This document shows, one piece after another, positions 1 to 26,071 of a stretch of DNA of 64,000 nt. The notes beneath the pieces are model-generated. The model made no database searches, was not told the DNA's origin, and saw only the letters and a list, made by a program, of their open reading frames with translations. Every line of letters starts with the position of its first letter. The first letter of the stretch is position 1. Position numbers and translations under genes: made by a program. The stretch covers positions 806,001 through 870,000 of the forward strand of contig NZ_AP028067.1 in the NCBI RefSeq assembly GCF_030297155.1, written 5' to 3'. The stretch is from Vibrio sp. FE10. GTDB lineage: Bacteria > Pseudomonadota > Gammaproteobacteria > Enterobacterales > Vibrionaceae.

Positions 1-341
1 CCTATCCTCCATCGATTTTTTATGACTTAATGGCTAAGAGAAAAGTAAACCAACGCAGAACTCAACCATTTTTTTCTAAAAAACCACCACTAAACACCAA
101 AAAAACAAATCACTAAAAGTTAAAAAAACAAATAATAACAGTCACTTAAAATGACAAAGAAACCAAAAAAAAGGTAAATGATTAGGCTTTATTTTTTTTC
201 TGCGTGATTCCGTGTAATTCCTTTCTGTTTTTAGGCCCAAGGCTCTAACTTAGTCGCCACTTTCACCGCAGCGTGAAACAAAAAATCGATAACAACAGAG
301 TCAGCTACTTGTTAGCTTTAGATACCTAGGAAATACATAGT
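1..341. other. AT-rich intergenic region before the barrel gene
   Basis: No open reading frame or RNA gene is visible. The stretch is rich in poly-A runs. It ends in the leader of the outer-membrane protein at 342, where TAGGAAAT precedes the ATG as a weak ribosome binding site. I could not identify a promoter with confidence. Confidence 0.5.
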
Positions 342-944
342 ATGCAAAACAAAACAGTAAAATTTTTCGCTTTGGGCGCATTGGCAGCAGCAACGACATT
401 TGGTGCAAGTGCAGAAAATACTTATGACTACTTTGTCGGTTTTGATGCCGGTACTCATATCAGCGGTAAATCGAAGGCAACCGGAACAGAGGAAGATGGA
501 ACCCCGTTTGAAAATTCTTATGATACCGATCCGTCTTTAATTACTGGATTGAGTGGTGGTGCGATTATTAATGACCACCACAGAGTAAAAATGAACCTTG
601 CTTATGATGCTCTTGAGTTTGACGGAGAAGATCATACCATTGACCGTACAGACCTGACTGTTAGCTATGATTATATGCTACCTATCGCTAACAAGCTTAG
701 CTGGACTGTGGGTGCGCATATGGGTTACGAATTTTTTGAAAGCGATGCAGATGACCTAGATGGCCTTACTTATGGTGTTCAAACCGGTCTAGACTACAGA
801 CTAACTCAAAAATGGAGCCTAGGCGCTGAAATCGCCTACACAGCTCACGACGGTGAAGTAAAAGCTGGTGAAGGTTTATGGTCCTATGAAGAGCAAATCG
901 AAGACGACGTAACCTTTATGGCTAACGTTCAATACCACTTCTAA
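342..944 (+). CDS. outer membrane beta-barrel protein
   Basis: A 200-residue secreted protein. Residues 1-24 form a signal peptide ending in the signal-peptidase-like site GASA. The mature part is acidic and made of alternating short strands with many aromatic residues. It ends in QYHF, the terminal aromatic residue typical of proteins inserted by the Bam machinery. The size fits an eight-stranded OmpA/OmpW-type barrel. It stands alone and is followed by a strong terminator. The exact family and ligand are unknown; a role in surface adaptation or small-molecule passage is only inferred. Confidence 0.7.
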   Translation: MQNKTVKFFALGALAAATTFGASAENTYDYFVGFDAGTHISGKSKATGTEEDGTPFENSYDTDPSLITGLSGGAIINDHHRVKMNLAYDALEFDGEDHTIDRTDLTVSYDYMLPIANKLSWTVGAHMGYEFFESDADDLDGLTYGVQTGLDYRLTQKWSLGAEIAYTAHDGEVKAGEGLWSYEEQIEDDVTFMANVQYHF

Positions 945-968
945 TTGAAGCTAAACACTGTCCTTATC

Positions 969-996
969 ACTCCCGGCTTTTGCCGGGAGTTTTTTA
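969..996 (+). terminator. rho-independent terminator of the barrel gene
   Basis: A GC-rich hairpin (CTCCCGGC paired with GCCGGGAG, four-base loop) is followed by six T residues, 25 bp after the stop codon. Confidence 0.9.
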
Positions 997-1467
997 TCTC
1001 AACATAGAATTTTCACTGCGCGTCAGCATTACCGCCCCTCTAGTCCCTTCCAGCATCACTATATCTTCATTTTGATAAACCAAAACGTTATTTGATTTAC
1101 CAGATAAAAATAGTGATGTATAAGTGACTGCATGGTAGCCATCTATCACTTTGGAGGTTTGAATCGGCTCAGTGGAATATGACAACTCAAAAGCGCCATT
1201 TTCAGACTGAGTGACTTCACCACTTAGCGCAAATAACGCCACACCTTCCAATCCATCACCTTCAACTGATATAGTGGATTCTATTTTTTCTCGATTGAGA
1301 CTTACCTCAATTCTCTCTCGCCACTGACCATTGGCCTTTGAGTACCCTTGAATACGAGCAATATAACGCCCTTCAATTAGCAATTGCTGACTACTAAAAT
1401 ACAACGAGCTACCATAACCCAACAATGAGGCAATAAAGATACTTATCCAACATTTGAGACTCTTCAT
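994..1467 (-). CDS. small membrane-anchored periplasmic partner of the regulator (ToxS/TcpH/VtrC-like)
   Basis: 157 residues. A single N-terminal membrane segment (about residues 8-25) is followed by about 130 residues of alternating strand pattern with no Cys. Its start codon overlaps the stop of the upstream regulator in an ATGA, so the two are translationally coupled. ToxR-type regulators in vibrios are commonly encoded with such a partner (ToxS, TcpH, VtrC), which stabilises the periplasmic domain or completes a ligand pocket. The strand-rich domain could be a lipocalin-like barrel as in VtrC. That resemblance is my inference from pattern and size; the sequence is too divergent for certainty. 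Confidence 0.55.
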   Translation of the reverse strand: MKSLKCWISIFIASLLGYGSSLYFSSQQLLIEGRYIARIQGYSKANGQWRERIEVSLNREKIESTISVEGDGLEGVALFALSGEVTQSENGAFELSYSTEPIQTSKVIDGYHAVTYTSLFLSGKSNNVLVYQNEDIVMLEGTRGAVMLTRSENSMLR

Positions 1468-2174
1468 TTCGCTAACTCCTTTGCTAACTGAGGAAACATT
1501 ACTTCTTCAACGAAGTAATTGTCACTACGGTGAGTGGCGTTATCATGAACCGAAATGTTGTAGCGACCATTTTTAAGACCAAAAAAATATAAACAGTCGC
1601 ACTGAGACGCTTTTATCATGTCTAACACTTGTGGTGGAATTTCAACATCATGCTTGCTAAGAACTTGCTTACCATCAACGTCAAGAAGCTCATAGTCAGG
1701 ATTGAGATAGGATATTAGCTGCGTATTGGTCACTTTAGTAAACTCAAGAAACGATGCAATAAGCAAAACAACACTGGCGATACCAAGCGCGAATCTCGCC
1801 CATGTTCTCAGTGACATTGTTTTACGCCCACTGCTAGCAGGTAGAACACCTTCCACTTTATCTAGCTTACCAGCACATTCACATGACAGCATATACCCAA
1901 CTCCAACCACAGTTTTTAACTCTACTGAATTGGAAATAGCAATCGCCAAGCGAATCTTCTGAATGGATTTTTGCAATGACGAATCTGTCACTATGGTATC
2001 AGGCCAACCTGCCGACTTAAGCGCCTCTTTTGCTAATACCTGATTGGCATTGTCTAATAATGTTTTCAGTAATAAACATTCATTATAGTTAAGAGAACGG
2101 CTATGATAGGTGGTACTTACCGTCATCTTCTCTACGTCAAATATCAAATCATCACATGTGTACTGGCTAGTCAC
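1464..2174 (-). CDS. transmembrane winged-helix transcriptional regulator (ToxR/TcpP/VtrA type)
   Basis: 236 residues, GTG start with AAGGA ten bases upstream. Residues 1-100 match an OmpR/ToxR-type winged helix: a strand-rich start, NECLLLKTLL, and the wing region IQKIRLAI..VELKTVVGVGY. Residues 126-146 form one membrane helix, leaving about 90 periplasmic residues with a CDC motif near 193. Proteins of this layout bind promoters directly from the inner membrane and respond to periplasmic signals such as bile salts. The gene is co-translated with the small membrane protein at 994-1467. It is not ToxR itself: the DNA-binding domain is shorter and diverged. Target genes cannot be read from the window. 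Confidence 0.75.
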   Translation of the reverse strand: MTSQYTCDDLIFDVEKMTVSTTYHSRSLNYNECLLLKTLLDNANQVLAKEALKSAGWPDTIVTDSSLQKSIQKIRLAIAISNSVELKTVVGVGYMLSCECAGKLDKVEGVLPASSGRKTMSLRTWARFALGIASVVLLIASFLEFTKVTNTQLISYLNPDYELLDVDGKQVLSKHDVEIPPQVLDMIKASQCDCLYFFGLKNGRYNISVHDNATHRSDNYFVEEVMFPQLAKELAK

Positions 2175-2374
2175 GTCTATCCTTGTCCAAGTGTAAAAAT
2201 GGTCTCAGTCAATCATTCAAAAGCACAAGTACTAAGCTAGGGTAGCTTAATACTTGGATTTGTGAGTTACCTGTCAAAAAGGAACAGGCGAGTAATCTGA
2301 ACTAAAGGGCCTGTATATGACAATAAAATAACATTACTTAAAGCTTAGCGCAGGTTAATATAAATAAACTTATC

Positions 2375-2414
2375 AAAAAAACAAAAGCCGTGTGGGCAAA
2401 ACACAGCTTTTTTC
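2375..2414 (-). terminator. terminator downstream of bactofilin
   Basis: The hairpin (AAAGC-GTGT / ACAC-GCTTT) has T-rich tracts on both sides and lies just past the bactofilin stop on the minus strand. Confidence 0.75.
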
Positions 2415-2433
2415 ATTTCAAATTTAGTTCCCA

Positions 2434-2874
2434 TCAGGCGTATTGCTGTGCGTCTTTTTTACTTTGCTGAGGTGGCGTTTTATCACGTTTTTTCACACTC
2501 TCTAAAGGGACTACTTCTTCTGCTTTGATATTCTTTGAGCTACCTAAAAACACGCCACCTTTTTCTATCGTAAATTCAGTTGCCGAGACTTCTCCTTCAA
2601 GATATCCGTGCTCAAGAATTTGTAAGGTTTTGGAATATACTTTGCCTAAAAAACGACCATTAACAATCAGGCACTCACAACGAATCGCACCTTCCACTGA
2701 ACCTGTAGCACTGATGGTGACGCACCTGTCCGTTTCTATATTCCCCTTTACCTGACCATCTATCTGGATGTGGCAAGTAAGTTTGAACTGTCCTTCGATA
2801 AAGGTGCCTTCTGCGATGACAGTTTGAGCGCTGTGGCCATTTGGCTCTCTATTATGTTTACTAAATAATCCCAT
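2434..2874 (-). CDS. bactofilin (polymer-forming cytoskeletal protein)
   Basis: 146 residues. The central part (about 20-115) is a run of short repeats of the kind G-x-I-x-G-x-V-x-G and V-x-G-R-F-x-G-K-V, the right-handed beta-helix signature of bactofilins (DUF583). Short polar tails, the last rich in Lys and Gln, flank it. Bactofilins polymerise without nucleotide and often localise a neighbouring M23 peptidoglycan hydrolase. Here the M23 gene lies immediately upstream in the same direction and its 3' end overlaps this start by about 115 bp. GAGG precedes the ATG. The bactofilin is intact although its presumed partner is disrupted. Confidence 0.9.
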   Translation of the reverse strand: MGLFSKHNREPNGHSAQTVIAEGTFIEGQFKLTCHIQIDGQVKGNIETDRCVTISATGSVEGAIRCECLIVNGRFLGKVYSKTLQILEHGYLEGEVSATEFTIEKGGVFLGSSKNIKAEEVVPLESVKKRDKTPPQQSKKDAQQYA

Positions 2875-3008
2875 TGTACATCCTCGTTCGATTTAAAAAT
2901 CGCATCAAAATTATTCATTTCCCACTTGGTAAAAGGCAAAGGATCGAGAGAGCGCCCAACCAAACGAATTTCATAGTGAAGGTGATAACCAGTCGATAGC
3001 CCCGAGTT

Positions 3009-3018
3009 GCCCGTTAGG
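3009..3018. repeat. target-site duplication, left copy
   Basis: GCCCGTTAGG, an exact copy of 3172-3181, flanks the MITE and is what remains of the insertion target inside the peptidase gene. Confidence 0.85.
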
Positions 3019-3171
3019 CAGGGTAAACGCATGAACGTTTTTTGCTCAATTTGAGTTTAATCCTTAAGCGGAGGTCGCTTTATAATTAAACGATGTAACA
3101 ATTATTATCTAGCCGCTGAAAAGCAAGTTAGTTCATCTGCTTAAATATCAAACACTCGTGCGGTCGCCCTG
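3019..3171. mobile_element. 153-bp MITE inside the M23 gene
   Basis: The element begins CAGGGTAAACGCATGA and ends with the complement of CAGGGCGACCGCACGA. The terminal inverted repeats match at 16 of 22 positions and share CAGGG, CGCA, GA and GTTT. A perfect 10-bp direct repeat flanks it. It holds no ORF. The CAGGG tips and 10-bp duplication fit non-autonomous derivatives of the ISAs1 family; that assignment is from memory of family traits. It disrupts the LytM domain of the surrounding gene. Confidence 0.82.
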
Positions 3172-3181
3172 GCCCGTTAGG
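3172..3181. repeat. target-site duplication, right copy
   Basis: GCCCGTTAGG, identical to 3009-3018. Confidence 0.85.
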
Positions 3182-3564
3182 CCAATTAATTGACCCTTTT
3201 TTACATATTCACCACGCTTAGCTTTAAACGCACTGAGATGTGAATAAGATGAAGTAAAACCGTAAGAATGGGCCACTCGAAGAAAGTTGCCAGAGCCCTT
3301 ATTACTTTTTCTGACAACTTCAATAATTCCCTCAGCAGGCGCAAATACTGGTGTCCCAACATTCACCGCATAATCAATGCCACGATGCATACTTTTTGCC
3401 TTGGTAACGGGATGAACACGATGTCCATAATATGACGAGAGGTAACCGCTCTTAACTGGTCGACCATTGGGTATCATCTGCATCATTTGATAGCGAACAG
3501 CGGTGGTCAAAGCGGCATTATCTACTCTTTCTCTTAGATTCAAAGACTCATCGGACAAAGCCAA

Positions 3565-3840
3565 TATTTAGAAGAGATCCATAAACACTTTCAAAAAGAA
3601 GTCGCTCAACTCTTTATCAACTACATACATGCTGAATCCGTTTGTATGTCATCGGCCATTACTGGCCCTGCAAATTTTCCCGTCGAGCGCAACAGAAAGC
3701 GTCTTGCTTCCGCTATGAACAAATATGACGCCATCGCAGAGAGAGAAAAGCAGCTGTATAAACGAGGGGTAAAAGTATGGAAACTAAAAACGTTAATGGG
3801 TCACGTAAACGATTTGGAAAACTTAATTCAGTTTTCGTAG
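3565..3840 (+). pseudogene. 3' fragment of a mobile-element-type hypothetical gene
   Basis: The frame is open from the junction with the peptidase remnant and has no credible start. It encodes about 91 residues. The segment around MSSAITGPANFPVERNRKR resembles a conserved block in hypothetical proteins of phages, plasmids and integrative elements; this is recalled by pattern and not searched. The part after about 3646 could be translated from its ATG as 64 residues. It overlaps the next small ORF at 3777. The 5' portion was lost at the same junction where the peptidase lost its start. Confidence 0.55.
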
Positions 3841-3886
3841 GTATGTTTGCAGCATTATTTTCAGGGATGTTTTTTCATCGCCTCTA

Positions 3887-4983
3887 TACCGAATCAACTT
3901 GAAGATGCAGGCTTGAGAATCTGAAAATTATCATTAATTCGAGATGTCAAAGAGCCTGCGATCTCTGGAAGAGTCACTGCAAAAAATTGGTCTATTGCCT
4001 CCTTGAAGTCCCGTTTTCTTTTGAAGTAAACGTTGTTCCTCGACTTCTCATTCATTACTTTCCATAGCCGCTCTATTGGGTTGAGGTTTGGGCTGTAAGG
4101 TGGAAGATAATGCAGTTCAATATTCAGGACAAACGCCGCATCTTTGACTAAGTCACTGCGGTGATACCCCGCACCATCTAAGATGATATGAAGCTTATGG
4201 GTTAACGGATAACTCTCTCTTAACTTACAGAAAAAGCGAACAATCGTTTCACTGTTAATGTTCTCATAGTCGTGAACAATGGTTGCACCGATATCCGATA
4301 GGTTCAGTGCGCCAATAATGTTCAATCGGCTACGATTACCCGTTGTTTCAATCACTTTATCCTGACCAGTTCGTATCCAGCCACGAGATATTTTTGTTGA
4401 TAGTGTTGGGTGAACTGCATCAATAAAGACTATCGATTCATCCTCGCCACAGCTTGCCTTTAGCGCTTCATAAGCCTCGATGAAAGCTTGTTGTTTTGCT
4501 TCATCAAATTTGTGTGGAACGCCTTTCGGCTGCTTGTAGCTAAAACCATTGTGGTGAAGCCATTTGTTCATACCAGAAACCGTGTAATCAAGTCCAAATG
4601 TCTCTTTAACGTAGGCGACAATTTGATGCGTGTGAGAATAGGTTTTCTCAGTCAAATGCTCGATTAGGTGCATGGTTTGAGTTGCAGAAAGCTTGCTTTG
4701 GCTTCCGCCATTTTCAGGCTTAAGTTTTTCAGAGAAAACATAATCACTGAGATGACGAGCAACAGTCGATTCGTGAATACGAAGAGCTTGTGAAATCATA
4801 GTCTGACTCCAGCCTTCAGAAGCCAGCAAAACAGCCTTAATACGGTCGCAGACCCGACTATCACGTTCAATGTCGTGCATTTGTTCGAGTTGTAGTTTCT
4901 GCTGAGGAGTCAGTGTAATTTTCATGGTTCGTAGCATGATCCTGATTTTAAAGAAAATCAAGCACCTTCAATGATCACGGGTA
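3887..4983 (-). mobile_element. IS630-family insertion sequence
   Basis: About 1.1 kb with one transposase gene and TA on both sides (3885-3886 and 4984-4985), the hallmark target duplication of the IS630/Tc1 group. The ends are imperfect inverted repeats: TACC, then a variable stretch, then TTGAAG-TGC on each side (13 of 22 positions). Excising it with one TA restores the reading frame of the ORF it splits. Confidence 0.8.
3894..4961 (-). CDS. IS630-family transposase
   Basis: 355 residues as drawn from the first ATG; ATGs 8 or 12 codons further in are equally plausible. The N-terminal third is a helix-turn-helix region (WSQTMISQALRIHESTVARHL). The C-terminal part is a DDE domain with the acidic residues in FIDAVHP, ILDGAGYH and LNPIERLWK, followed by a basic end. 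It is full length, with no internal stop, so the element may still move. It catalyses cut-and-paste transposition into TA sites. It lies inside a small ORF of the degraded accessory region. Confidence 0.93.
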   Translation of the reverse strand: MIFFKIRIMLRTMKITLTPQQKLQLEQMHDIERDSRVCDRIKAVLLASEGWSQTMISQALRIHESTVARHLSDYVFSEKLKPENGGSQSKLSATQTMHLIEHLTEKTYSHTHQIVAYVKETFGLDYTVSGMNKWLHHNGFSYKQPKGVPHKFDEAKQQAFIEAYEALKASCGEDESIVFIDAVHPTLSTKISRGWIRTGQDKVIETTGNRSRLNIIGALNLSDIGATIVHDYENINSETIVRFFCKLRESYPLTHKLHIILDGAGYHRSDLVKDAAFVLNIELHYLPPYSPNLNPIERLWKVMNEKSRNNVYFKRKRDFKEAIDQFFAVTLPEIAGSLTSRINDNFQILKPASSS

Positions 4984-5011
4984 TATATTAATTTACAATC
5001 CCTTGGCGTTT

Positions 5012-5269
5012 ATGGACAACAAAACTAGACTAAGTATTACTTAGTATACAGAGACTAATAAAGCTAAGAAAATCTTAGCTACTGAGAAACTATATAATGA
5101 AAACCAAGTGCAATTTATTAACCCAATACCAATTAGACTCAAAGACGCTCGAAAAAAGTGCGACTTTCTCAAAAAGCGCTGGAAAACGAAACGAAGGCCG
5201 ACTTGCATCAGCTTTATAGTGCACTCCACGTTTGATAACGAAACTCATTTCTTTGTTTGTTCGAAGTAA
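5012..5269 (+). pseudogene. small hypothetical ORF with an internal amber codon
   Basis: ATG 5012 overlaps the end of the preceding small ORF. After ten codons (MDNKTRLSIT) there is a TAG at 5042-5044. The same frame then stays open for 74 codons to TAA 5267-5269, with a composition that looks coding: many Lys and Arg, ending HFFVCSK. A CAG to TAG change would explain it. No family is recognised. Its place in a chain of overlapping plus-strand ORFs suggests cargo of a former mobile element. Confidence 0.45.
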
Positions 5270-5415
5270 TTTCGATTTTGGGGCGCATCAGTGTTGAGGG
5301 AAGATCCATTTTTCTCCTCTTGTTCGTACCTCTCTCTATATTCTTTCGCTGACTTTATTTCCAGCTTAACTGCAACCTTCCTAGCTTGCTCATAGCTCAT
5401 ATAAATTTCAGACAT
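5245..5415 (-). CDS. 56-residue protein resembling a phage-integrase repeat unit
   Basis: MSEIYMSYEQARKVAVKLEI starts this short ORF, preceded by a strong site GGGAGG seven bases from the ATG. The pattern YMSYEQARKVAVKLEIKSAKEYRERY resembles the repeat found at the N-terminus of some Vibrio tyrosine recombinases (PHINT_rpt type: an S-Y-E-x-A start, then L-x-I-K-S and a Y-x-x-R-Y end). That resemblance is recalled and not searched. It overlaps the end of the opposing ORF by 25 bp. It may be a free-standing accessory factor or a remnant of the element's integrase. Confidence 0.5.
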   Translation of the reverse strand: MSEIYMSYEQARKVAVKLEIKSAKEYRERYEQEEKNGSSLNTDAPQNRNYFEQTKK

Positions 5416-5650
5416 TCAGCACCTCCCAGATCTCACATAGTTCAATCAATACTAAGGATTTCTTAATATACCAATTAGTATATAGTTTATGGTTCTCACA
5501 AATTCCAGTTTCATAATTATCAAATCAGACTTAATCACTGATGTGGATAGGCGTAGTTTTAGTATGCTTTTCTGAGTAGAACTAATTTTCATATAGATAG
5601 TTGAACAATGGTATCGTTAGATTCTTTTGCTAGTACTGTATTTGAATTGC
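5416..5650. other. AT-rich intergenic region between the small ORF and dinB
   Basis: No ORF is visible. It holds an 18-bp near-palindrome at 5466-5483 and the -35 element of the dinB promoter near its end. Base composition is more AT-rich than the housekeeping parts of the window. Confidence 0.5.
5466..5483. promoter_or_regulatory. near-palindrome upstream of the small ORF, possible operator
   Basis: ATATACCAATTAGTATAT is palindromic except for one base pair near the centre. It lies about 50 bp upstream of the minus-strand ORF at 5415, where a phage-type repressor could bind. No regulator gene is present in the window, so the role is speculative. Confidence 0.3.
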
Positions 5651-5656
5651 TATAAT
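5627..5656 (+). promoter_or_regulatory. sigma-70 promoter of dinB
   Basis: TTGCTA (5627-5632) and a perfect TATAAT (5651-5656) are 18 bp apart. The LexA box begins 2 bp after the -10 element. Confidence 0.75.
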
Positions 5657-5657
5657 G

Positions 5658-5673
5658 CTGTACAAATACACAG
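5658..5673. promoter_or_regulatory. LexA (SOS) box
   Basis: CTGTACAAATACACAG matches the CTGT-N8-ACAG consensus of proteobacterial LexA operators. It covers the expected transcription start of dinB, so LexA would block initiation until DNA damage. Confidence 0.85.
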
Positions 5674-5730
5674 TTCAAAGGTGTTGAAAAGGTTTATGCA
5701 CCTAAACCATTCAAAAACATCGATTAAAGT

Positions 5731-6780
5731 ATGCGAAAAATAATTCACATTGATCTCGACAGTTACTATGTCTCTGTAGAAGCAAGGGACAACCCCTCTT
5801 TACGTGGAATTCCTCTAGCTGTTGGAGGGAAAAATGGTCGCGGCGTTATTGCAACGTGTAGCTATGAGGCGAGAGCTTTTGGTGTGCGTTCGGCAATGTC
5901 TACAGCAAAAGCGTTACAACTTTGCCCAAGCTTAACGGTAGTGTCTGGAAATATGGAAAAGTATAAGGCGGTATCTAGGCAAATCCATGAAATATTTAGA
6001 CGGTATACGGATGTAATAGAGCCACTGTCGTTAGATGAGGCATATTTAGATGTCACAGGTTCTAATTTGTTTCAAGGTTCAGCAACTTTAATTGCAGAAG
6101 ACATACGTAAATCTATTCAAACGGAATTGAATTTAACGGCTTCAGCAGGAGTTTCCCCATTAAAGTTTGTTTCTAAAGTCGCTTCAGATGTGAATAAGCC
6201 TAACGGTATATGTATTGTCCCACCTTCTGAAATCCAAACTTTTATAGACGAATTAGAACTAGGGAAAATAAATGGTGTTGGGAAGGTGACGTTAGAGAAA
6301 TTAAACAAACTTGGCTTGTATAAAGGGGAGGATATTAAGAATTTCGATAAAAACACTTTGATTTCAAAATTTGGTAAATTTGGGCATACGCTTTGGCAAA
6401 GGTGCAATGGTATTGATGATAGAGATATTGTTGTTGAAAGGGTAAGAAAGTCAGTAGGGGTTGAACGGACATACTTAAATGATATTCATAGCCTGGATGA
6501 ATGCATGCTTGTAATAAAGCCTTTGTATGTCGAATTAGAGCAAAGGTTAGAAAAAGCGCTTGCAGATAAAGTGATCACGAAACTCGGTGTGAAGTTAAAG
6601 TTCAACGATTTTCAACAAACAACGGTTGAACATAAGTATGATGAAATGGATATGCAGTTTTTTATCAAGTTATGTGAAGAAGCCGTTGCTAGAAGTCATG
6701 GACGAAGTATACGTTTAGTCGGACTAAGTGTTGGTATTGAACCCAAGGAATCAACTGATCAATTACAACTCCCTTTGTGA
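5731..6780 (+). CDS. dinB: DNA polymerase IV, complete copy
   Basis: 349 residues, close to the 351 of the E. coli enzyme. The N-terminus IIHIDLDSYYVSVEARDNP holds the first catalytic Asp (residue 8) and the Tyr steric gate. SLDEAYLD holds the other catalytic acids, and the protein ends in a QLQLPL clamp-binding motif. It performs error-prone translesion synthesis at stalled forks and is driven here by a LexA-controlled promoter. It is clearly diverged from the second dinB 180 bp downstream and visibly more AT-rich, so it looks acquired and not a recent duplication. It is probably the only working dinB at this locus. Confidence 0.93.
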   Translation: MRKIIHIDLDSYYVSVEARDNPSLRGIPLAVGGKNGRGVIATCSYEARAFGVRSAMSTAKALQLCPSLTVVSGNMEKYKAVSRQIHEIFRRYTDVIEPLSLDEAYLDVTGSNLFQGSATLIAEDIRKSIQTELNLTASAGVSPLKFVSKVASDVNKPNGICIVPPSEIQTFIDELELGKINGVGKVTLEKLNKLGLYKGEDIKNFDKNTLISKFGKFGHTLWQRCNGIDDRDIVVERVRKSVGVERTYLNDIHSLDECMLVIKPLYVELEQRLEKALADKVITKLGVKLKFNDFQQTTVEHKYDEMDMQFFIKLCEEAVARSHGRSIRLVGLSVGIEPKESTDQLQLPL

Positions 6781-6945
6781 TTTTTGTAAGTGGATTTTTA
6801 AGAAAATGCCCATTTTTTACATAAATTTCTCAGATTTTTTTGTAAGGGGGAGTTGCAAGTGAAAGTTTGTATCTAACTCTATGTTATAAATGCGTATTCA
6901 CTCACTCAGTCAGTTAAACTTACATTTTTCACCCACAAGTTTACA

Positions 6946-7962
6946 TACGCAGCTGTCGAAATGCGCGATAACCCGGCCTACCGAAATCGACCGCTTGCGG
7001 TTGGCGGGCATGAAAAACAACGAGGTGTCTTGAGCACCTGTAATTACGAAGCTCGCAAGTTTGGTATTCGTTCTGCGATGCCAACGGGGAAAGCGCTACA
7101 GCTTTGTCCTAACTTATTAGTGGTTCCGGGAAGAATGCAGGTTTATGTTGAGATATCTAAAAAGATCCGTGAAATTTTTTCTCGATACACATCATTGATT
7201 GAACCTCTTTCTCTGGATGAAGCATTTCTTGATGTGACTGAATCAAAGTTGTGTCACGGTTCTGCGACACTGATTGCCGAGTCAATTCGCCGTGATATTT
7301 GGAACGAGTTAAATCTCACGGCTTCAGCCGGTGTCGCTCCGATAAAATTCTTGGCTAAAGTGGCTTCGGATATGAATAAGCCCAATGGGCAATTTGTTAT
7401 TCCTCCGCAAGACGTACAAGCTGTCATTGATGATTTACCACTCGAAAAAATCCCAGGCGTTGGCAAGGTCAGCATTGAAAAGCTCCATCTAGCGGGATTC
7501 TTTACATGCAAAGACATCAAAGGGGCAGACTATCGAGACTTGCTTCTGAAGTTTGGTCGACAAGGTGCATCGTTGTGGAAGCGAAGCCATGGTATTGATG
7601 AAAGAGAAGTCATCATAGAACGCGAGCGTAAATCCGTAGGCGTTGAGCGCACGTTTACTCAAAACATTTCGACTTATGCTGAGTGCTGGCAGGTGATAGA
7701 AGACAAATTGTTTCCTGAGCTTGAAACTCGCCTAGAAAAAGCCAGCCCAAGTAAAGCAATCATCAAACAGGGCATTAAGCTCAAGTTTGCTGATTTCCAA
7801 CAAACGACCATAGAACACATACATGCTTCATTGGATCGAGAACACTTCAAAGAACTATTGAGTGAGATCTTAAAAAGACAACAAGGGCGAGAGATACGCC
7901 TGCTCGGTTTGAGTGTGATGTTACAACCCAAAGAACAAGTGAAGCAGCTGAGTTTCTTTTAA
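6946..7962 (+). pseudogene. dinB: second DNA polymerase IV gene, 5' end missing
   Basis: Homology begins at TAC GCA GCT GTC GAA (YAAVE), equivalent to about residue 13 of a normal DinB. The preceding residues, including the catalytic Asp of the IHVDMD motif, are absent. An unrelated sequence is in frame back to a stop at 6874 with no start codon. Translation could begin only at ATG 6961 (333 residues), which has no ribosome binding site and would lack the metal ligand. The rest is intact, including SLDEAFLD and a C-terminal QLSFF clamp motif, and its composition matches the housekeeping genes. It is most simply the resident gene, decapitated when the upstream segment arrived. Confidence 0.85.
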
Positions 7963-8028: not shown

Positions 8029-9963
8029 TTATCTTGGCAAGCGTTTTACCAATGCTAAGGTTTCACTGAACGGTTGTTGCTCTAACTTTCCGTACCCCGA
8101 CATTTTGCTGGCTTTTAATTTGGTAGAAAGCGGTGTCGCGATTCCGCATAAAAAGCGAGTAATGGCTTCGTCGGTAATCAGTTGTTGGCTATTGGATATG
8201 AACTCTTGAATCCAAGCGACGACGATCTCTTCATCTATAGGTTCAGCTTTCACGCTTGGTAGTGTGGCAATTTCTCCTCGGCATACTGAGCAGTGACCAC
8301 AGTCTTTGGGTGCCTTATCATCGGCAAAGTAACTCGCAAGACGTGAGCTTAGACAAGTATCCGCCTCAAAGAAGCTCAGCATTTGATTAAGACGGTTTAT
8401 TTCACTGTTCTCTTTTGCTTTAAACAACTCAGTTAAACGTTCTGATAATTGCATCATATCTTCAGACGTATTGTGGATCGCGTAAACATCCGTGATCTGC
8501 TTACTTTCCAATTCAATCCAGCCTTGTTCATTGAAGTAGTCGATAGCGGTAACAACGCGTTGACGGTCGGCCTGGAAGTGTGTCCAAAGCGCATCGAAAT
8601 CAACTTGGCACCAGACTCTTGCTTGTGGTGAGCATTGGAAAATAGCCTCTACGAAGTGTCGGCGTTCTCCTTGGAACTGCTCTGTGATCTGTTGTTTCGG
8701 ACGAATGAACTTAAATTTGTAGTCAGCGAAGTAGCTGTATTTGGGCTCAATCACGCCTTCAATTTCGAGATAAACCAACAGTGTTTTTAGCGGGAGTTGA
8801 CGAATGTTAGATTCACGCGATAGTTGGTTGAGCATGATCTCCCATTGGTTTGCACCAGAAGCGCCAATGTTTTGGTTTTCGTAGATCTCTTTCAAGACAG
8901 CTTGGATCGAGATGTTGTCTGGTGTATCACCAAATACGAAGTTCTCTAGCGTGCTGAGGCCATACTTGTTGGCGAGAAGAATACATGCTGAAGGTTGACC
9001 ATCTCGGCCTGCTCGGCCGATCTCTTGCGAGTAGTTCTCTATCGATTTTGGTAAGTCGAAGTGAATCACACGGCGAATGTTTGACTTGTCGACGCCCATC
9101 CCGAAAGCAATCGTCGCCACAATACAATGCACGTCATCATTCATGAATTGATGTTGAATGGCATCTCTATTTTCTGGTTTAAGCCCTGCATGGTAAGCGA
9201 CTGCGTTGATTCCAGCATTGCGCAGTTGCTGAGCCACCATCTCTGCTGTTTGTTGAAGGGTGACATAAACGATGGTCGGAGCTTGAGGCGCTTGATTGGC
9301 GACCGAGCACAGAGTCTCTAGCTTACTAGCTTGTTCACAAGGCTGAATCGACAGGTCGAGGTTTTGACGATAGAAACCCGTAACAACAACGCGTTCCTCA
9401 TCGATATTAAACTTAGACTTCATGTCTTGGATAACTGAGGTTGTTGCGGTTGCAGTCAGTAGTAATACCTGCGGGATATTCAGTTGTTTTTGGTATTGAG
9501 GCAACTTGAGATAATCGGGTCTAAAGTTGTGTCCCCATTCAGAAATACAGTGCGCCTCATCGACCACAAGTAACGAGATTGGAACCTGAGAAATGAACTG
9601 GCGAAAGCGTTCGTTCTTCAAACGCTCGACGGAGATCATCAGAATCTTGGTGTCTCCGTTACGCACAGACTGCATCACCTGTTGAGTGGTCTGTCTGTCT
9701 TGGCTAGATTCTATCGCAGCGGCGCTGATCCCTTTACTGTGTAAGAAGCTTAATTGGTCTTTCATTAAGGCTAACAGTGGAGAAATAACCAAAGTTAAAT
9801 GAGGTAACTCTAACGCGGGTAATTGGTAGCACAGCGATTTACCTGAGCCCGTCGGGAATATGGCCGCGGTAGAGTGACCGGATAGAACATTATCAATGAC
9901 TTGCTTTTGCCCATTACGCAGTGAATCGAATCCGAATACTTGTTTTAGCTTCTGCTCAATCAT
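8029..9963 (-). CDS. RecQ-family ATP-dependent DNA helicase
   Basis: 644 residues. The Walker A motif PTGSGKS is near residue 37, DEAHCISEWGHNFRPDY near 135, and a helicase C domain follows with FGMGVDKSNIRRVIH and QEIGRAGRDG. A zinc-binding Cys cluster ends in CGHCSVC near residue 560. The C-terminus carries a short winged-helix-like region and no obvious HRDC domain, so this is likely a RecQ paralogue and not the classical RecQ. It unwinds 3'-5' DNA in recombination and repair. It converges with the truncated dinB. Confidence 0.88.
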   Translation of the reverse strand: MIEQKLKQVFGFDSLRNGQKQVIDNVLSGHSTAAIFPTGSGKSLCYQLPALELPHLTLVISPLLALMKDQLSFLHSKGISAAAIESSQDRQTTQQVMQSVRNGDTKILMISVERLKNERFRQFISQVPISLLVVDEAHCISEWGHNFRPDYLKLPQYQKQLNIPQVLLLTATATTSVIQDMKSKFNIDEERVVVTGFYRQNLDLSIQPCEQASKLETLCSVANQAPQAPTIVYVTLQQTAEMVAQQLRNAGINAVAYHAGLKPENRDAIQHQFMNDDVHCIVATIAFGMGVDKSNIRRVIHFDLPKSIENYSQEIGRAGRDGQPSACILLANKYGLSTLENFVFGDTPDNISIQAVLKEIYENQNIGASGANQWEIMLNQLSRESNIRQLPLKTLLVYLEIEGVIEPKYSYFADYKFKFIRPKQQITEQFQGERRHFVEAIFQCSPQARVWCQVDFDALWTHFQADRQRVVTAIDYFNEQGWIELESKQITDVYAIHNTSEDMMQLSERLTELFKAKENSEINRLNQMLSFFEADTCLSSRLASYFADDKAPKDCGHCSVCRGEIATLPSVKAEPIDEEIVVAWIQEFISNSQQLITDEAITRFLCGIATPLSTKLKASKMSGYGKLEQQPFSETLALVKRLPR

Positions 9964-23494: not shown

Positions 23495-26071
23495 TTAGTT
23501 AGCAACGATGTTCAGAAGCTTGCCAGGTACGAAGATAACTTTACGGATAGTTAAGCCATCTAGGAACTTCTTAGCGTTCTCATCGTTTAGACCAAGTTCA
23601 CGAACTTGCTCTTCGGTCGCATCAGCTGCAACAGTCAGTTTCGCACGTAGCTTACCGTTGATCATTACAACGATAGTCTTCTCGTCTTCAACTAGCGCTT
23701 TCTCATCGAAAGTTGGCCATGTTGCTGAGTCTACGTTTGATTCACCAAGTGCAATCCACATTTCGTAAGAGATGTGCGGAGTCATTGGGTAAAGCATACG
23801 AACCACTGCTTTTAGCGCCTCATCAAGAATTGCACGATCTTGTACAGATTCTTGTGGCGCTTTCGCTAGCTTGTTCATTAGTTCCATGATCGCAGCGATG
23901 GCAGTGTTGAATGTTTGGCGACGGCCGATATCATCCGTTACTTTCGCGATAGTCTTGTGGATATCACGACGAAGTGCTTTCTGGTCGCCAGATAGCGCAG
24001 AAGCGTCAACAGATTCAGCTGCACCTTTAGCTGAATGAGTGTGAACCAATTTCCAAACACGTTTAAGGAAGCGGTTTGCGCCTTCAACGCCAGACTCTTG
24101 CCACTCAAGCGTCATGTCTGCAGGCGATGCAAACATCATGAATAGACGTACGGTATCAGCACCGTACTTGTCTACCATCTCTTGTGGGTCGATACCGTTG
24201 TTCTTCGACTTAGACATTTTGATCATGCCTGAGTGCTCAACGTCGCGGCCTTGATTGTCGACAGCTTTTTCAATGCGACCTTTCGCGTCACGGTCGATAG
24301 TCACGTCAGTTGGAGCAATCCACTCTTTCGTGCCTTTATCGTTTGTGTGGTAGAACGCGTCAGCCAGAACCATGCCTTGACATAGAAGTTGCTTGAACGG
24401 TTCATCAGATGTCACGTAACCCGCATCACGAAGAAGCTTGTGGAAGAAACGAGAGTAAAGCAGGTGCATACAAGCGTGCTCGATACCACCAACGTATTGA
24501 TCAACTGGCAACCAGTAGTTTGCTTTCTCTGGATCTAGGATGTCGTCAGCTTGTGGTGAACAGTAACGTGCGTAGTACCATGAAGATTCCATGAACGTAT
24601 CGAACGTATCAGTTTCACGTAGCGCAGGTTCGCCGTTGAATGTTGTTTCAGCCCAAGACTTATCTGCCTTGATTGGGCTAGTTACGCCATCCATTACCAC
24701 GTCTTCTGGAAGAATAACGGGCAGTTGGTCTGCTGGTACTGGGTGAACTTCACCGTCTTCAGTGGTTACCATTGGGATTGGAGCACCCCAGTAACGCTGA
24801 CGAGAAACGCCCCAGTCACGTAGACGGAAGTTTACTGTTTTCTTACCTTTGCCTTCAGCTTCAAGCTTTGCAGCGATTGCATCGAATGCTTCTTGGAAAG
24901 CAAGACCATCGAATTCACCAGAATCGAACAGTACACCTTTCTCTGTGTAAGCCGCTTCAGACACGTCTAGCTCAGAACCGTCTTCTGGCTTAATTACTGG
25001 GATGATATCGATGCCGTACTTAGTTGCGAATTCGTAGTCACGTTGATCGTGAGCAGGAACCGCCATTACAGCACCTGTGCCGTAGTCCATAAGAACGAAG
25101 TTAGCTACGTAAACAGGAACAATACGACCGTTAAGAGGGTGGATAGCCGTTAGGCCAGTATCCATACCTTTCTTTTCCATCGTTGCTAGTTCAGCTTCAG
25201 CCACTTTGGTGTTGCGACATTCTTCAACGAATGCTGCAAGCTCAGGGTTGTTCTGTGATGCTTTCTCTGCAAGAGGGTGACCCGCAGCGATACCAACATA
25301 AGAAACACCCATTAGCGTGTCTGGACGAGTTGTATAAACTTCTAGTGGCGCTTCTTCACCGTTAACAGCGAAAGATAGCTCAACACCTTCAGAGCGACCG
25401 ATCCAGTTGCGCTGCATGGTCTTAACCATTTCAGGCCAACCTTCAAGGTTGTCTAGATCGTCTAGTAGCTCTTGAGCGTACTCAGTGATCTTGATGAACC
25501 ACTGTGGGATCTTCTTTTGTTCTACTGGAGTGTCACAACGCCAGCAGCAACCGTCTTCTACTTGCTCGTTCGCAAGAACCGTTTGGTCGTTTGGACACCA
25601 GTTAACAGAAGAAGTCTTCTTGTAAACTAGGCCTTGTTCGTAAAGTTTAGTGAAGAACTCTTGTTCCCAACGGTAGTACTCAGGTGTACACGTTGCGAAT
25701 TCACGTTTCCAGTCGTAACCAAAGCCTAAAAGTTTAAGCTGGTTTTTCATGTATTCGATGTTTTCGTAAGTCCACGGTGCAGGCGCTGTGTTGTTTTTTA
25801 CAGCTGCGTTTTCTGCAGGTAGGCCGAATGCATCCCAACCGATTGGCTGCATTACGTTTTTGCCTTGTAGACGTTGGAAACGAGATACCACATCACCGAT
25901 GGTGTAGTTACGCACGTGACCCATATGCAGTCGGCCACTTGGGTACGGGAACATAGAAAGACAGTAGAATTTTTCTTTATTTGGGTCTTCACTTACAACG
26001 AAAGTCTCGCTGTCATCCCAGTGTTGTTGAACCTTTTGTTCAATCTCTTGCGGGTTATATTGTTCTTGCAT
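23495..26071 (-). CDS. leuS: leucyl-tRNA synthetase
   Basis: 858 residues, typical length. The HIGH motif is in [11 protein letters not shown] (about 42-52), the editing domain is near 220-420 (TTRPDTLMG), and KMSKS is in [10 protein letters not shown] near 618. The enzyme charges tRNA-Leu; nine tRNA-Leu(UAG) genes lie 9-12 kb away. It heads the minus-strand cluster that runs to lipA. Confidence 0.98.

Follow-up and report, generated by a model that had tools for sequence, protein, structure and literature searches.

A putative tyrosine-recombinase element within dinB of Vibrio sp. FE10 and the complete dinB it carries as the likely replacement

Why does Vibrio sp. FE10 hold two dinB genes in a row, the first complete and the second without its beginning? 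Both lie in the window, the whole stretch of 64,000 nucleotides analysed here (contig NZ_AP028067.1, positions 806,001 to 870,000 of the forward strand). G000 denotes its genome, G071 a same-species genome with intact dinB, and other G, C and L numbers are our handles for genomes, contigs and loci. The dinB product, DNA polymerase IV (Pol IV), is a low-fidelity polymerase tied to stress-induced mutation. Our answer, read from sequence comparisons, is that a tyrosine-recombinase element very probably severed the resident dinB after codon 20, and that the complete dinB at its right end likely replaces the lost Pol IV.

The first dinB (5731..6780, plus strand) encodes a complete protein of 349 aa, which is Pol IV by NCBIfam (NF002677, E 2.9e-146, 487 bits against a cut-off of 256). 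It has the Y-family (IMS) domains by Pfam (PF00817, PF11799, PF11798), ends in the C-terminal QLQLPL and falls in the element lineage of the tree given below. A perfect CTGT-N8-ACAG palindrome, CTGTACAAATACACAG (5658..5673, plus), is a predicted LexA box. It is the sole exact match in the window, where 1.17 are expected by chance, so its weight comes from its position 73 bp before the ATG.

The second dinB is the resident remainder (6948..7962, plus), open for 337 codons. Referred to the intact same-species gene, it is without the first 21 codons, and the lost residues include the Asp that we take to be the first catalytic one. The GC content is 38.3% in the element dinB and 44.7% in the resident, and the two proteins are 58% identical. 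A first-pass annotation, made from the letters of the window, had described a complete AT-rich dinB with a LexA box, followed by a well-diverged dinB that has lost its 5′ end and the Asp, and all this stands. Its figures needed correction: homology to the second gene restarts at 6948 and not 6945, the distance from the first stop is 167 bp and not 166 bp, and the loss is 21 codons rather than about 16.

Where is the missing head? It is absent within 22 kb upstream of the junction and is located farther upstream. The severed 5′ piece with its LexA box stands 25 kb away, near G000:C1:787,7xx, beyond an element of 25,146 bp (G000:C1:787796-812941) with a GC content of 40.3% against 43.6% in the flanks. 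The right part of the element fills 1..6941 of the window, and the left end is 18.2 kb upstream of it, at G000:C1:787796. At the left junction, the resident promoter with the LexA box, the ATG and 20 codons run to GATATGGATTG-TTTTTA and foreign DNA follows from AACTAGCAGGTG, creating a stop codon. The right junction reads ...CACCCACAAGTT-TACATA-CGCAGCTG. Here 6922..6941 (plus) is the C′-like right terminus of the element, an imperfect inverted repeat of the left one, and 6942..6947 (plus) is a foreign 6-bp footprint, TACATA, while the native TTTTTA remains at the left junction.

The empty site is unbroken in G071, GATATGGATTG-TTTTTA-CGCAGCTG, with flanks 96.2% and 97.5% identical to those of G000. 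In relatives with an intact dinB, the alignment to the second gene begins only at about 6946–6948, and the closest intact gene among those compared is again that of G071 (R_G071, 97.1% DNA identity). Because the severed 5′ piece and the right junction match this uninterrupted site, the G000 locus is an insertion into the resident gene and not a duplication. The alignment to an uninterrupted dinB, proposed in the first pass as a check, bears out its idea of an incoming segment that landed in the resident 5′ end with its own polymerase, and both junctions are now defined.

Which machinery does the element have? At its left end in G000, four frames in the same orientation of 408, 751, 942 and 197 aa (stop to stop) follow the order intA-tfp-intB-srap. 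The Photobacterium counterparts have 423, 755, 925 and 179 aa, and the first three frames are found also in Pseudoalteromonas, Thalassotalea, Psychrosphaera and Colwellia, where open reading frames of at least 250 aa were listed. The invariant residues include R191/H334/R337/H375/Y389 in IntA (7 sequences) and R449/H693/R696/Y730 toward the C-terminus of IntB (6 sequences), and the R-H-R-Y motif expected of strand-biased circularizing integrative elements (SEs) is found in both, as assigned by eye. The tfp-like second frame has no HxxR block among its invariant residues, again by eye, and its structure model is weak beside what is expected of an SE Tfp, a recombinase fold lacking the catalytic residues. 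The element ends in imperfect inverted repeats, AACTnnnnnGTG and AACnnnnGGGT. A tyrosine recombinase, which the annotation had suggested looking for with such elements, is indeed encoded, its genes lying at the opposite (left) end.

NCBIfam gives no match for IntA or IntB, for the srap-like protein or for the C-terminal 410 aa of the tfp-like one, the presence of Gamma-Mobile-Trio (GMT) models in that library being unconfirmed. We take a Gamma-Mobile-Trio island to be one with GmtX/GmtY/GmtZ proteins. A tblastn search of plasmids with IntB and IntA did not list pAQU1, reportedly SE-bearing, and the named SEs are themselves mutually distant, with IntA, CDS2 and IntB of SE-6945 and SE-6283 only 20.5–23.2% identical (PMC9345347; this and all other papers are cited for selected sections).

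The dinB element shares with the SEs of PMC10214605 and PMC9345347 the intA-tfp-intB-srap order at the left end with an ordinary and a large recombinase, the imperfect inverted termini, and a native 6 bp at attL with a foreign 6 bp at attR. The SE rule is that the native 6 bp stay at attL and the attR 6 bp are copied from the left flank of the donor (PMC10214605). In the dinB loci, the attL 6 bp are native-like in 15/15, of which 7 were found by a genus left-junction pattern that itself held the native 6 bp with two mismatches allowed, and 8/8 are native-like among the loci from a search with the 6 bp left free. The attR 6 bp are native-like in 0/18, and a dinB-like attR footprint is seen in none of these 18 dinB-sited loci. 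The true native 6 bp are known from an empty site for G000 only.

By gene order, termini and the 6-bp rule, we class the element as SE-like. It differs in that the cited sections of PMC10214605 and PMC9345347 describe no carried copy of the target gene. GInt elements (PMC5385486) also combine a four-gene recombination module with specific sites, but GinA and GinB have the catalytic motif and GinC does not (per PMC10214605), whereas in the dinB element the second gene is without it and the third has it (by eye).

How widely is this site used? Of 227 genus genomes, 11 have the left junction and none a control pattern, and in each of the 11 a complete element dinB accompanies a headless resident. 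The two junctions are on separate contigs in G233 and G239. Additional right junctions in Vibrio are those of G192, whose contig begins inside the element, and G229, at a contig end, and Vibrio with five other genera gives 18 right junctions in total. The complete element dinB is directly upstream of the right junction in 14 of the 18 and inside the element in 3; Colwellia has two farther left. In G229 (L132, G229:C2:3191106-3193338, and L133), the element dinB and the headless dinB at the contig end are joined by an intact resident elsewhere in that contig, which may reflect a mixed population, a duplication or an assembly effect.

Searching named genomes with the IntB alignment yielded 9 loci, each in a genome with at least two dinB matches, and 8 have the left junction at the identical dinB site. 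Those in V. rotiferianus, V. tasmaniensis, V. inusitatus and Vibrio sp. ES.051 have the coordinates of four loci already counted. The others are in Photobacterium sp. SKA34, Pseudoalteromonas sp. P1-25, Thalassotalea loyana, Psychrosphaera sp. F3M07 and Colwellia sp. 1_MG-2023. Vibrio and Photobacterium have the element dinB at the right end, and in Pseudoalteromonas, Thalassotalea and Psychrosphaera the complete dinB is internal, in either orientation. The same dinB position is thus occupied in other genomes, as the first pass had proposed to examine, in the genus and in four other genera, with Colwellia giving the right junction only.

The Colwellia region (G254:C1:5000-124999; L176-L179, L201, L202) has a headless dinB at its right end and, to the left of intA, two complete dinBs of the element type that stand between apbE-like and headless dinB genes. 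The resident 5′ half was not found in 120 kb, nor the left junction in 40 kb more. Because of the single junction, the two element-type dinBs and the absent 5′ half, this region is a composite and stays outside the clean cases.

An order-wide sample of 394 genomes gave 5 pattern hits, none of them new. Three are counted genus members, G386 has coordinates equal to the Thalassotalea locus, and G511 is not dinB by its reading frames and context. Several other candidates for an interrupted dinB were rejected: G125 and G096 have one-base slips in a T tract, G208 meets a contig edge, G132 has the target site intact and, of 23 re-examined genomes, G081, G137, G136, G001, G010, G019 and G133 have dinB broken elsewhere than at the target site. 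The left-junction search gave no headless dinB without an element dinB, though such a case might be missed in a separate genome table, which has a row for each genome and not for each match. The second gene is shortened in every tandem seen, while a complete one was the contrary case raised in the first pass.

Are the two DinBs of different descent? In a tree of 128 proteins with a quick support method, the 19 element DinBs make one side of a single branch (support 86), at 1 change against 16.8 in shuffles, and 59 ungrouped rows may fall inside that side. The headless Vibrio genes nest among Vibrio residents, with H_G000 grouped with the same-species R_G071 and R_G076 and with H_G011. The four Alteromonadales headless genes have long branches and an unsure place in this tree, which is without their intact relatives. 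Because the headless Vibrio genes group with residents and the element DinBs are separate, the upstream dinB is, by this tree, not the vertically inherited copy, and the opposite outcome named in the first pass was not observed.

The element lineage includes database proteins labelled V. parahaemolyticus and V. vulnificus. A plasmid origin of the element dinB was rejected, as 4998 of the best 5000 records are below 60% identity and 2 are in the 60–80% band, and so was a phage origin, as all 111 phage matches are below 60%. The dN/dS ratio of the element dinB is 0.055–0.155 in 5 of 6 pairs, the sixth being saturated. Since this is low, the element DinB appears to be kept functional.

The insertion site codes for DMDCF(Y/F)AAV in residents. 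At this motif the element DinBs differ from resident-invariant residues in 64 of 144 cells (44%), against 252 of 2735 (9%) elsewhere, with one element row left out (Colwellia copy 2, unclear start). The five most changed of 156 windows compared along the protein all overlap the site, and the exact site ranks 5 of 156 overall, 3 in the Vibrio/Photobacterium type and 11 in the Alteromonadales type. The changes are M to L, F to Y and often C to S in the former type, and C to A and A to S in the latter. The element rows share ancestry, so few independent events stand behind these counts. We infer that the changes represent an escape from self-insertion, as the element dinB with its target motif lost would no longer be hit.

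Where did the copies come from? Under the SE rule, we infer that the dinB-sited copies came from other sites. G011 and G018 have near-identical dinB ends and differing attR footprints, CTTCAA and TCTAGT. The right footprint TTGCGA is found in both G109 and G239 despite their diverged dinBs, which hints at a common secondary site.

The only off-site copy is in a flagellin gene of G003, where attR is dinB-like, TTTCTA, and attL is the native CACCAA. The G003 loci are L128/L129 and L130 (G003:C1:2363.3k-2394.4k and 1544000-1549500). At the target site of the G003 resident dinB stands ACCCGATAGTC, the end of the same element, followed by a deletion into the gene. This right-terminus remnant and the deletion indicate that the element once sat in the G003 resident dinB and was largely lost, and that the flagellin copy bears the dinB-donor mark. 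The element dinB of G003 is frameshifted and its intB is split by an IS21-type insertion; a group II intron there is ruled out by a Pfam match to the IS21-type IstB. Decay of an off-site element dinB through redundancy was considered and dropped, as the G003 resident dinB is deleted at the target site.

The right-end module of promoter, dinB and terminus occupies 5586..6941 (plus), window position 5586 being element position 23791. The last 1.35 kb including dinB is about 94% identical between G000 and G018/G011, and the left core about 67%. This difference indicates that the dinB end has been exchanged between elements.

Does the insertion also rewire transcription? The resident LexA box upstream of attL is exact in 14 of 15 loci and present in 15/15 as CTG-N10-CAG. 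Of the 13 loci with an intA frame, 12 have its start 79–93 nt into the element and one has it at 253 nt. In G000, the only locus scanned, no terminator-like site was found between the resident promoter and intA. Because the box is kept, intA is close and no such site intervenes, transcripts begun at the resident SOS promoter would extend into intA.

These pieces may fit a wider scheme. The SE-type copy-out/copy-in by the recombinases, in which one strand circularizes and no empty site results, would leave no repaired gene behind, and for that reason the element would carry its own dinB to cover the loss of the resident. Docking would set intA-tfp-intB behind the resident LexA-box promoter, so that damage to DNA would trigger mobility. 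With dinB already taken in the donor cell, elements would alternate between dinB and secondary sites, as the footprints suggest. dinB could then be a programmed dock, in which the recombinase operon is wired to SOS, the resident is destroyed, the element DinB is self-immune and often SOS-controlled, and alternating addresses are recorded in the footprints. The Pol IV lineage would be the price of admission across Vibrionales and Alteromonadales. We hold this full scheme tentatively, with slightly more doubt than confidence.

If our reading is right, marine Gammaproteobacteria have repeatedly exchanged Pol IV for a diverged version that belongs to an element, and a mobile gene could lie behind dinB-based comparisons and studies of mutation rate in these species. 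It would also explain how an element without site repair can afford to hit a repair gene. Two questions arise from it, namely SE-type mobility wired to SOS through the target promoter and target immunity evolving in the carried copy.

Several observations weigh against a severed and replaced dinB or against parts of the scheme. The count of native attL is in part by construction for 7 of 15 loci. An IntB match is missing in two of the 11 dinB-sited genomes, G099 and G233, and a stop lies inside the intB frame of G018. The tree support is moderate, by the quick method, and the headless genes are without visible decay. G229 has an intact resident dinB elsewhere, with its junction at a contig end. 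Element-group copies are absent from 72,556 plasmid records, which gave only three matches of 29–31%. The exact box is upstream of the element dinB in 11 of 19 cases, and 13 of 19 even as CTG-N10-CAG. Both dinB copies look broken in G003, which would leave that assembly without Pol IV, in one case where sequencing error is possible. The G099 locus (L200, G099:C19:1436-10037) is a remnant of about 7.5 kb, with a frameshifted intA, no tfp, intB or srap seen, a complete element dinB and a headless resident.

Could the carried dinB serve the element itself, for example by copying past a nick or lesion in copy-out or in new hosts, rather than cover a lost gene? Three Alteromonadales-type elements hold dinB internally, in either orientation and off the junction, and the element DinBs are a distinct lineage, of which the Colwellia region has two. 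These facts would suit such a service. The IntB group points the other way. The genus has at least 15 IntB-like loci, the distant ones being a lower bound with at most 3 candidates scored per genome and a G239 piece (26%) left uncounted. All 10 loci of at least 43% identity occur with an element dinB, G003 included. The five of 28–34% (G175, G007, G127, G210 and a further G000 locus) share the four-gene layout and are sited elsewhere. G175, G007, G127 and G210 have no extra dinB, and the only extra dinB of G000 is that of the dinB-sited element. Five distant elements of the same layout at other sites, without an element dinB of their own, tie the gene to the dinB-targeting group and not to the machinery, so we consider the service to the element unlikely.

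Three of these five distant modules lie just after a superoxide dismutase gene, by Pfam for G000 and by eye for G127 and G210. The second G000 module (G000:C1:3524038-3530595; L195:6039-12596) is directly downstream of a Fe/Mn superoxide dismutase gene.

A less likely case, which we rate as improbable, is an ordinary integrase or ICE-type island whose clean excision restores dinB, the extra dinB being hitchhiking cargo. It has precedents in the mutS element of V. splendidus (PMC5296598) and the recA element of V. cholerae (PMC4405046), both of which excise. However, a module of four genes that includes two recombinases and a tfp-like gene agrees with SEs, as does the asymmetry of the 6-bp rule, and all 18 dinB-sited loci come with a complete dinB, which is more regular than cargo would be.

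The recA element, the RME of Vibrio cholerae S24, is the closest precedent for the dinB element. It is an island within recA, at 494 bp, whose excision restores recA, and its authors propose that the carried recA copy covers the loss (PMC4405046). The two are alike in an island inside an SOS repair gene, a complete divergent copy at the end opposite the integrase, a LexA-box promoter, short inverted repeats and target specificity. They differ in that the RME targets recA and one island is described, whereas the dinB element sits at codon 20 in many species with SE-like genes and has a separate DinB lineage whose target motif is altered.

The mutS elements of V. splendidus 12B01 and others likewise lie within a conserved motif close to the start of a gene for DNA repair, have a link to mutation rate and extend through Vibrio and beyond, and in 12B01 the excision leaves a scar (PMC5296598). 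They give the resident mutS a new promoter and start, so the gene is still used (PMC5296598), whereas the dinB element carries a whole replacement gene and the resident is abandoned. The word dinB is absent from the main texts of PMC10214605, PMC9345347 and PMC5385486, although SE supplements listing insertion sites could include a dinB case, and literature searches at the title and abstract level found no printed dinB attachment site. New here is an SE-like element targeting dinB with its own DinB lineage, while the idea of a split gene covered by a carried copy was already proposed for the RME.

Might the headless resident still make a useful protein from an internal start, giving two working polymerases? 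All 13 Vibrio cases keep the frame open, and the dN/dS ratio has low values, 0–0.094, in the 8 of 13 pairs that are not saturated (5 are). This ratio takes in divergence older than the insertion and so is no evidence of present selection, and the DMDCF block is missing in every case. We therefore regard a second working polymerase as very improbable. A tandem duplication or an assembly artefact, for which G229 with its contig end and intact copy might be quoted, is dismissed, as the proteins are 58% identical and of separate lineages, identical junctions recur in separate assemblies and the same-species empty site refutes it for G000.

Other features of the locus concern its neighbours and cargo. 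Downstream of dinB, the resident helicase gene (8029..9963, minus), presumably recQ, is also beside the intact dinB in L035. In G071 (L136), about 2.2 kb of extra DNA at 4771-7013 directly follows the intact dinB and is missing from G000. Within the element, a DDE transposase with winged-helix domains (3894..4961, minus; Pfam DDE_3 and HTH_33) is one we take to be IS630-like. Capture by an IS630-type transposon as the cause of the insertion is ruled out, as the transposase lies 2 kb inside the element and the junction is common to elements of differing content. Among the cargo are type I restriction genes (G000) and defence genes resembling LmuB/PDC-S73 (G005). At 2434-3564 of the window, inside the element, a bactofilin gene stands beside fragmented M23 peptidase frames, which are possibly frameshifted or recently broken cargo. 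The Psychrosphaera element (G257, region 23750-25006) seems, by eye, to carry a UmuC-like frame, a second translesion polymerase.

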